From NCBI GenBank assembly GCA_013619105.1, contig JABXKU010000004.1, positions 40,468-104,467 on the forward strand: a stretch of 64,000 nt of DNA. The letters are read 5' to 3'. Made by a program: the position numbers and the translations under genes. This DNA comes from Desulfuromonadales bacterium. Its GTDB lineage: Bacteria > Desulfobacterota > Desulfuromonadia > Desulfuromonadales > Syntrophotaleaceae. The notes under the pieces were generated by a model. The model was not told the DNA's origin and did no database searches. It was given only the letters and a program-made list of their open reading frames with translations. Below are positions 17,654-62,487 of this stretch, piece by piece (position 1 is the stretch's first letter; each line of letters begins with the position of its first letter).

Positions 17654-17845
17654 TGGGCTTCGCAGCCCGCTGACATAAAAGTCCACTCCGATTTAAGGCC
17701 GGCTAAGGCAATAGCTAAGCTACCTTGAACGATGGGTGTCCCTGGAAACGGTGGCGCCTCCCGCATTTGGAAAGGAGTCGACCTGCGAACGCGTATTCCA
17801 AGGTATATGGTGCGCTGGCGGGGTGACCCGTCAGCGCATTTTTTT
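17654..17845 (+). promoter_or_regulatory. Structured 5' leader, candidate riboswitch/attenuator, upstream of TonB-dependent receptor
   Basis: Hairpin GGGCTTCGCAGCCC; closing stem TACCTTG (17720)/CAAGGTA (17799); internal pairings GGTGTC/GGCGCC and CTCC/GGAG; followed by a strong terminator. Confidence 0.55.
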
Positions 17846-57407: not shown

Positions 57408-57483
<76 letters not shown>

Positions 57484-59641: not shown

Positions 59642-61069
59642 ATGTCCCAAGAGCAAAAAAGGCGTTTGCTGGTAGTGTCCAATCGTCTGCCGGCGGTTGT
59701 TGAGTCTCGGGGGGAAGAATGGCACATCACCCCCGGAAGCGGCGGGCTGGTGACGGCCCTGGCTCCGGTTATGCGGCAGCAGCAGGGGTTGTGGATCGGT
59801 TGGCCGGGTTGCGGCGATGAGGCTCCACTGGGTCAGCTGTTGACCGGTTTTGCTCAGGACCATGGCTATTCTCTGGCGGCGGTGCCTCTTTCGGCCGATG
59901 AGGTGGAAAAGTATTATCGAGGATTTTCCAACGAGGCCTTATGGCCGCTGTTTCACGATCTTCTCGGCTTCTGTCGTTTTTCTTACGACAATTGGCAGGT
60001 TTATCTCGATGTCAACCGCCGGTTCGCCCAGGTCGTGACCGAGCATGCCAAGGCTGATGACCTGATCTGGGTTCACGACTATCAGTTGATCGGAGTGGGA
60101 GATCAGTTGCGGGCTCTGCAGATGCCCCAACCTCTCGGCTACTTTCTGCACATCCCCTTTCCGGCTCCGGACCTCTTTCGCCGCCTGCCGTGGAAGGACC
60201 AGTTAATTCGTTCGCTTCTGGCTTACGACCTGCTCGGTTTTCAGACCCTGCGGGATCGGCGTAATTTTGTTAACACCGCGATCTCCCTGCTAACCGAGGT
60301 CGAGGTGGTCAGTCGCAAACGGCAGTACGATTTATTACGCTTCGAAGGACGTACGGTGCGAGTTGGGCATTTTCCGATCAGTATCGATTTTGACGAATTT
60401 GATAGCGGCGCACGGTCCAAAGAGGTGGAGGACGCTGCCTGGTATCTGCATGAGAACCTGCATGGCCGGCAACTGATGCTGGGGGTCGACCGGCTTGACT
60501 ATACCAAGGGGATACCTGAGCGATTTTTGGCCTTTGAGCGGGCGTTGGAGAAATACCCCGAGCTTATTACCAAGATCAGCCTGATGCAATTGGTGGTACC
60601 GAGCCGTACCCTGGTGCCTGACTATCAGAATCTCAAAGAGACCCTAGATCAGCTGGCTGGCCGCATTAATGCCCGTTTCGGTGAGTCGATGTGGAACCCT
60701 ATTTATTATGTTTTTCGCAGCCTCGATCGCACCCAGCTGCTGGCTCGTTATCGGACCTCGGAGATTGCCCTCATCACCCCACTGCGAGACGGCATGAATT
60801 TGGTGGCCAAAGAATATTGTGCCAGTTCGGTGGAGAACAACGGCGTGCTGATTCTCAGCGAGTTTGCCGGAGCGGCGGATCAGCTCGGCAAGGGGGCACT
60901 GCTGGTCAATCCTTATGATATTGAAAGTACCGCCGACGCTATTTATCAGGCTTATGTCATGGCTCCGGACGAACGCCGCAGACGGATGAAGCTGTTGCGT
61001 AACGAAATTCGGAGAAATGATGTGCATCGCTGGCTGGATAGCTTTACTCAAGCCCTATATTCCAGTTAG
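59642..61069 (+). CDS. otsA: Alpha,alpha-trehalose-phosphate synthase-like GT20 enzyme
   Basis: [66 protein letters not shown]. Confidence 0.9.
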
Positions 61070-61136: not shown

Positions 61137-61165
61137 TTGCTATTCGACAGTAATTCTGCTAGAAG
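61137..61165 (+). promoter_or_regulatory. Candidate sigma70 promoter of the aroF leader
   Basis: TTGCTA - 17 bp - TAGAAG, about 33 nt before the leader peptide ATG. Confidence 0.45.
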
Positions 61166-61197
61166 AAAAGAGTATGTAAATTCACGGAGTGTTGACG

Positions 61198-61290
61198 ATG
61201 CAGTTTTGTTGCGAGTTTTTTAACGGTTTTTCCTTTTGGCGCGGCTTCTTTTTTAGGCCGTCTGCCCAGGGTGAAGGTCCGTTGACGTAA
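61198..61290 (+). CDS. Phenylalanine-rich leader peptide (attenuator), 30 aa MQFCCEFFNGFSFWRGFFFRPSAQGEGPLT
   Basis: 8 Phe in 30 codons including FFF; GGAG 8 nt upstream of ATG; followed by an antiterminator/terminator arrangement before aroF. Below the ORF-track length cutoff. Confidence 0.8.
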   Translation: MQFCCEFFNGFSFWRGFFFRPSAQGEGPLT

Positions 61291-61319
61291 CTGACAGTCG
61301 TCAATCAACCGATTAACAC

Positions 61320-61369
61320 AAACCACGGGCAGACCAAACTTCGGCCCCGTGGTTTTCTTTTTGTTTTTT
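61320..61369 (+). terminator. Attenuator terminator upstream of DAHP synthase
   Basis: AAACCACGGG (61320-61329)/CCCGTGGTTT (61346-61355) followed by TTTTCTTTTTGTTTTTT; GTCTGCCC (61260-61267) can pair with GGGCAGAC (61327-61334) as antiterminator. Confidence 0.85.
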
Positions 61370-61467
61370 ATCGGCGAAAAGGGTGCGGCTGGGGCGAATG
61401 GAAAGCCACAACTCGCGTCTCGAAGTCAGACCGCTTGGCTTGAAGGCGCCGTCAGAAGGAGACAAAG

Positions 61468-62487
61468 ATGATCATTGTTATGAAGCAGGGGGCCAGCCAA
61501 GAGCAGTTGCTGGAGATCAAACAGCGCATATGCGATCTTGGCTATAAACCCCACGTGATTCACGGAGCGACCCGCAATGTCATTGGTGCCATAGGGGATG
61601 AACGGGGCAAAGCGGTCCTGCAGTCTATCGAGTCGATGGAGGGTGTCGAAAATGTGATGCCGATTCTGCAGCCCTACAAATTGGCCAGCCGCGAAGTCTG
61701 CCCTGAGCCGAGTATCATCGAGCTGGCGCCCGGTCTAACCATCGGCGGCGAGCAGCTGATAGTGATGGCGGGTCCCTGTTCCGTGGAAGGGGAAGAGCAG
61801 CTGATCGAGACCGCCCGCGCAGTCAAAGCGGCCGGGGCTACGGTACTGCGGGGCGGCGCGTTCAAGCCTCGTACCAGCCCCTATGCTTTTCAAGGCCTAG
61901 AAGAAGAAGGGCTGCGACTGCTCGACCTGGCTCGGCAGGAAACTGGCCTGCCCATTATTACCGAGGTGGTCAACCCGCGGGATGTAGAACTGGTAGCCCG
62001 CTATGCCGATATTCTGCAGGTCGGGGCGCGCAACGTGCAGAACTTTCCGCTGCTCAAGCTGCTGGGGCAGCAAGACAAACCGGTGCTTCTCAAGCGCGGT
62101 ATGGCGACCACCATCAAGGAATTTCTGATGAGCGCTGAGTATATCCTGTCCGAAGGCAATCGGCGGGTCATTCTCTGCGAACGAGGTATTCGTACCTTCG
62201 AAACGGCGACCCGCAACACCCTCGACATCTCCGCCGTGCCGGTGCTTAAAGAGCAGACCCACCTGCCGGTGGTGATCGATCCATCCCATTCCACCGGACA
62301 CGCCAGTTTGGTGCCGTCCATGTGTTATGCGGCGGTGGCGGCCGGTTGTGATGGGTTGCTGGTCGAAGTCCACAACAGCCCCGAAACCGCCTCCTGCGAT
62401 GGACCCCAGTCGCTGCGTCCGTCAGAATTTGACGCTACCATGGACAAACTGCGCAAATTCGCCGCGGCTGCCGATCGAAAGCTTTAG
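61468..62487 (+). CDS. aroF: 3-deoxy-7-phosphoheptulonate (DAHP) synthase, AroF/AroH-type Ibeta with N-terminal ferredoxin-like domain
   Basis: [63 protein letters not shown]. Confidence 0.93.

Follow-up and report, generated by a model that had tools for sequence, protein, structure and literature searches.

The leader region upstream of aroF

The window, i.e. the whole stretch of 64,000 nucleotides analysed here, contains the gene aroF on the forward strand (61468–62487). It encodes a class I-beta DAHP synthase with an N-terminal ferredoxin-like domain (TIGR01361, NF006421, PF00793, PF18152). DAHP synthase is the first enzyme of aromatic amino acid synthesis. The genome of the window encodes another DAHP synthase (L003, 51% identical), which has no leader-like arrangement upstream. 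On the other side of the leader, a glycosyltransferase family 20 gene of the trehalose-phosphate synthase type ends at 61069. This gene belongs to a block which lies between the leader and a divergent tRNA-Phe (GAA) gene on the reverse strand (57408–57483). Elsewhere in the window, a molybdenum/tungsten cofactor (Moco) riboswitch is located at 17674–17793 on the forward strand (Rfam RF01055, 63 bits). A plasmid search gave no match.

The aroF leader contains a short open reading frame, MQFCCEFFNGFSFWRGFFFRPSAQGEGPLT, of 30 codons on the forward strand, with an ATG at 61198 and a TAA stop at 61288–61290 (61198–61290 including the stop), which is kept in relatives. It comprises eight Phe codons, compared to 2.75 expected from shuffling (P = 0.00035), and one Trp codon located in the critical zone. 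It is the only one with at least seven Phe residues among the 439 ORFs of 20–45 aa in the window. A Shine-Dalgarno-like GGAG (61186–61189, forward strand) is positioned 8 nt upstream of the ATG, and a purine-rich site is found there in most relatives. The leader RNA folds 4.15 s.d. below shuffled sequences.

The probable leader promoter, on the same strand, consists of a −35 box TTGCTA (61137–61142), which follows the pattern of the relatives, and an extended −10 element TGC TAGAAG (61157–61165), separated by a 17-nt spacer; most of the relatives also have a TGn before the −10 box. The TTG–17 nt–TA pattern is present in 33 of 34 cases at a near-constant distance upstream of the leader ORF, although 25% of shuffled sequences also contain such a pattern. 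Transcription of the leader would start about 25 nt upstream of the ORF.

Conserved and mutually exclusive RNA helices

The same layout was found 5′ of aroF in 33 relatives, and the resulting alignment of 34 leaders (the window and these 33) was used for the helix statistics. The left strand of the antiterminator, GTCTGCCC (segment 2, 61260–61267), is complementary to GGGCAGAC (segment 3, 61327–61334), and the latter overlaps the left arm of an intrinsic terminator (61320–61369, −15.8 kcal/mol). The terminator (3:4), situated between the leader ORF and aroF, is formed by AAACCACGGG (61320–61329) and CCCGTGGTTT (61346–61355) and is followed by the U-rich tail TCTTTTTGTTTTTT. Through this overlap the antiterminator and the terminator exclude each other. 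A further hairpin (1:2, 61242–61260) can be formed by CGGCTT (61242–61247) with AGGCCG (61255–61260), and this pairing is seen in relatives as well. All of these elements are on the forward strand. In a mechanical terminator scan with a loop limit of 8 the terminator of the window was not detected, because its loop exceeds this limit.

The antiterminator 2:3 is paired to 95.4% over the 34 leaders, with double-sided compensatory changes at seven of nine pairs, and the terminator 3:4 to 96.5%, with double-sided changes at four of ten. Hairpin 1:2 (80.9% of cells paired, double-sided changes at 4/6 pairs) is conserved less well than these two. When the partners are slid by 1–3 columns, the pairing of 2:3 and 3:4 drops to 27–56%. 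The covariation score of the antiterminator was reached by none of 500 shuffles; such controls ignore relatedness, but the separate compensations are nonetheless numerous. In four loci (L011, L014, L016, L019) GTCTGCCC/GGGCAGAC is exchanged for CATCGACCC/GGGTTGATG with the pairing left intact.

Several elements had already been proposed in a sequence-only reading of this DNA: the ORF with eight Phe codons, a segment just after the FFF run able to pair with part of a terminator, this terminator with its U-run before aroF, and the layout of ribosome-mediated attenuation as a whole. The letters and coordinates of the ORF, the stem arms and the tail were confirmed, and the Trp codon comes in addition. 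Phe codons and pairing segments, whose conservation that reading had named as a check, are both retained, with compensatory changes, not only in the 33 relatives but also in most genomes of the class.

It might be argued that the hairpin is a mere terminator of the glycosyltransferase gene, downstream of which it lies and whose read-through it would block, and that the Phe-rich ORF is fortuitous. However, a promoter is present between this gene and the leader. In relatives, leader, antiterminator and terminator persist even though a divergent tRNA-Phe gene often stands upstream in place of the glycosyltransferase gene. An upstream-gene terminator also leaves the compensation in the antiterminator and the selection for Phe codons unexplained, and this explanation is regarded as extremely improbable.

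Control codons and the folding switch

The position of the control codons was analysed by placing a ribosome at each codon of the window leader and folding the free RNA at equilibrium. In this model the probability of the antiterminator exceeds 0.85 only with the A-site on F11-S12-F13-W14-R15-G16-F17, i.e. on the control codons FSFWRGF (61228–61248, forward strand). With the A-site on F18 antiterminator (0.49) and terminator (0.36) are about equal, and at all other codons the antiterminator stays below 0.05 and the terminator wins. With footprints reaching 6–14 nt beyond the A-site codon the switch zone moves by about 1–2 codons, so the result is robust. A stalled ribosome is thus predicted to free segment 2 and a ribosome further on to mask it.

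In the 34 leaders, the share of aromatic codons is 47–97% at each codon offset from −15 to −3 relative to segment 2, with the exception of offset −6 (9%), and averages about 1–2% from offset −2 onward. The aromatic codons fill the switch zone of the model, so that the putatively sensed codons are in the right place for sensing. Phe makes up 26% of the 968 residues of these leaders. TTT (188) and TTC (65) stand against TTA (0) and TTG (18), the former replacing the latter across relatives; judged from the sequences, this is selection at the codon level.

Because conserved, compensated helices come together with a folding switch that coincides with the zone of aromatic codons, the aroF leader is very likely a ribosome-mediated transcription attenuator, which would sense scarcity of charged tRNA-Phe, and probably of tRNA-Trp, via the FSFWRGF codons. 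If one of these charged tRNAs is scarce, the ribosome would stall on these codons and leave GTCTGCCC uncovered to pair with GGGCAGAC, whereby the terminator would be blocked and RNA polymerase would continue into aroF. With plentiful charged tRNAs the ribosome would clear the control codons and cover segment 2, or hairpin 1:2 would hold it; segments 3 and 4 could then pair and transcription would end at the U-run before aroF. The basis of this assignment lies in the sequence, namely in the parts, their conservation and mutual exclusivity, the compensatory changes and the match between codon position and folding switch; from it we infer termination in vivo, a response to aminoacyl-tRNA and the co-sensing of Trp.

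A switch driven by another signal, such as a protein, a small molecule or a T-box, with the ORF being secondary, appears very improbable, since the leader matches no Rfam family, T-box and riboswitches included, and the switch in folding falls on the aromatic codons.

Distribution and target genes

Searching 85,462 species genomes with the aroF protein yielded 80 loci. Among the best matches, most of which carry the label Desulfuromonadales, the arrangement of the window recurs upstream in nearly all cases. A covariance model built from the leader and used for genome surveys matches 253 of 277 genomes and 80 of 82 genera of the class to which the window belongs. Just one copy was found in the genome of the window (other matches E >0.6), and aroF is the next gene in 39/39 loci checked from separate genomes of the class. 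In 13 other genomes from the aroF scan, where no leader was visible, no match to the model was better than E = 0.14.

Of 15 relatives examined, 12 (L018, L021, L022, L024, L029–L034, L037, L038) have a divergent tRNA-Phe(GAA) gene directly next to the leader; in 5 of 40 further loci (L222, L224, L233, L234, L236) it lies at most about 350 nt away. The gene of the sensed tRNA is thereby linked to its sensor.

Across the wider phylum, the model matches 86 of 396 genomes sampled. About 20 of the 40 loci inspected outside the class precede aroF-type DAHP synthases; the other targets are class I-alpha DAHP synthase, 2-amino-3,7-dideoxy-D-threo-hept-6-ulosonate (ADH) synthase, phenylacetate-CoA ligase and branched-chain-type ABC substrate-binding proteins. 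ADH synthase, the first enzyme of the archaeal-type aromatic route, is preceded by mixed Phe/Tyr leaders (L174, L189, L192, L196, L204). One further locus (L201) lies before a 2-isopropylmalate synthase gene and is without a clear aromatic leader. The codons of the leaders amount to F92:Y68:W24 before aroF, F20:Y19:W3 before ADH synthase and F55:Y5:W3 before phenylacetate-CoA ligase; of the transporter groups, one has F19:Y2:W1 and another Y10:F3. From these sequences the codon make-up seems to follow the target gene, which is a lead and not a proof because the groups are small and the leaders related.

In seven loci (L167, L171, L177, L178, L182, L185, L191) genes or operons of phenylacetate-CoA ligase (PaaK) are preceded by near-pure-Phe leaders with the same RNA architecture, which suggests that anaerobes salvage phenylacetate into Phe under the control of Phe. 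In two loci (L200, L203) branched-chain-type ABC substrate-binding proteins, which may belong to aromatic amino acid transporters, are preceded by Tyr-rich leaders of the YYYYGYLRRSA type.

Inspection by eye also revealed aromatic leaders and matching terminators before aroF in several genomes of Rokubacteria/Methylomirabilota, Nitrospirae and Nitrospinota, of which the covariance model reaches just 1/10. Switchable hairpins are found in leaders of Rokubacteria (L059, L063, L074, L076, L082), Nitrospinota (L057) and Nitrospirae (L056, L060, L067). In the Rokubacteria leaders only the second hairpin has a U-tract, the first has none.

Phenylalanine or aromatic amino acids

The sequence-only reading had also proposed that Phe-tRNA levels set transcription into this DAHP synthase. 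The dominance of Phe codons agrees with it, but Phe alone is probably too narrow. Phe codons are present in every leader, the relatives having 6–11 and usually a Trp in addition. A Trp codon occurs in 32 of the 34 aligned leaders and in 39/39 leaders of the class loci, a Tyr codon in 24/34 and 37/39, respectively, and the common core of the leaders in the class is FYFWYGFYFRPSA. The window leader has Phe and Trp but is without Tyr. Most of the Trp and Tyr codons of the relatives lie where ribosome stalling would make the antiterminator available. As the Trp codon is near-invariant and Tyr is added in relatives, the leader family probably reads aromatic amino acids with Phe dominating, as far as this can be deduced from codon content.

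It is possible but rather unlikely that the attenuator responds to Phe-tRNA alone, with the conserved Trp and Tyr codons arising as side effects of drift or of constraints on RNA structure. Such a pure Phe attenuator would fit the high share of Phe residues, the lack of Tyr in the window's own leader and the linkage of the leader to a tRNA gene for Phe in many relatives. However, in most leaders the Trp codon lies 7–8 codons upstream of segment 2, within the switch zone and outside the core of the 1:2 stem, and it is retained throughout the class loci. Moreover, the phenylacetate-CoA ligase leaders are nearly pure in Phe whereas those before aroF in the same phylum are mixed; therefore Tyr and Trp are not obligatory for the structure. 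Regarding the mixed reading, DAHP synthase serves all three aromatic amino acids, so that a mixed sensor makes sense. For the window, the switch very probably lets the cell sense a shortage of Phe, and Trp is probably co-sensed.

A second terminator in relatives

In many relatives (L012, L013, L017, L020, L021, L023–L027, L029, L030, L032–L042, L057, L059, L063, L074, L076, L082) the first terminator is followed by another hairpin upstream of aroF, and most of these second hairpins carry a U-tract. Segment 4 can pair with the left arm of this hairpin (segment 5). In a hand-delimited set the mean energy of the own 4:5 pairing is −15.7 kcal/mol versus −14.1 kcal/mol for swapped partners (0/5000), a test that is confounded by shared ancestry and by the similarity between the first and the second hairpin but better than an automated finder. 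For loci up to L040 the values are −14.0 and −13.0 kcal/mol (8/5000). The automated finder of tandem hairpins gave p < 0.05 for 4:5 in 15 of 30 and serves only as a rough check because it picked wrong hairpins in several loci. These data suggest a relay in which stalling leads to 2:3, segment 4 is thereby freed to pair with 5, and 5:6 is prevented.

No second terminator was found at 61370–61467 of the window; the window and its close relatives L007–L010 have only the first one. Downstream of it, GAAAGCCAC (61397–61405) is complementary to the right arm of the terminator, GTGGTTTTC, and may be what is left of segment 5 in a lineage that lost its second terminator.

Taken together, it is reasonably probable that the window leader is a member of an undescribed, phylum-wide aromatic attenuator regulon. 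Phe, Tyr and Trp codons would be integrated before genes of the common pathway (class I-beta and I-alpha DAHP synthases and the archaeal-type ADH synthase), with nearly pure Phe before phenylacetate-CoA ligase and Tyr before some ABC transporters. Many members would switch two tandem terminators via a 2:3-then-4:5 relay, reduced to one terminator in the lineage of the window.

Relation to known attenuators

The pheL-pheA and pheST attenuators of Escherichia coli combine a Phe-rich leader with an antiterminator/terminator switch and sense Phe-tRNA. The window leader resembles them in layout and in its predicted sensing of Phe-tRNA, but their targets are an enzyme of the Phe branch and the Phe-tRNA synthetase, whereas here it is DAHP synthase. 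The E. coli trpL leader has four segments (1:2, 2:3, 3:4) and control codons just upstream of segment 2; this logic is shared, although trpL uses Trp codons only and has another target. In the enteric his leader six segments form either 1:2, 3:4 and 5:6 or 2:3 and 4:5. Its topology resembles that of the two-terminator relatives and not the window with its single terminator; in contrast to the his leader, the first hairpin (3:4) of the relatives usually has its own U-tract.

A known precedent at a DAHP synthase is the aroR-aroF system of Corynebacterium glutamicum, where a leader with Phe-Tyr-Phe is reported to control the DAHP synthase by ribosome-mediated attenuation, with induction under Phe limitation (Neshat et al. 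2014, as summarised in PMC11802643, which also cites E. coli pheL-pheA and pheST); the aroR leader is also found in PMC4046766. Both systems have an aromatic leader peptide before a DAHP synthase gene and would share ribosome-mediated attenuation. The likeness concerns the functional layout. C. glutamicum belongs to another phylum, and the leaders presented here have 6–11 Phe and usually Trp. The amino acid leader families of Rfam 15 (for Phe, Trp, His, Leu and Thr) and the T-box gave no match in the window at E up to 5, and at the gathering threshold no leader family matched in the window and 20 related loci. No description of the leader in Desulfuromonadales or in the phylum was found in the open literature searched. 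The mechanism is classical and the leader family apparently unnamed, and in most of these genomes its peptide ORFs probably lack an annotation.

The natural variation of the leader codons with the target gene offers a ready test of whether one attenuator integrates several amino acids. In nearly the entire class of these anaerobes, a classical attenuator would be the conserved control of the first step into aromatic synthesis.
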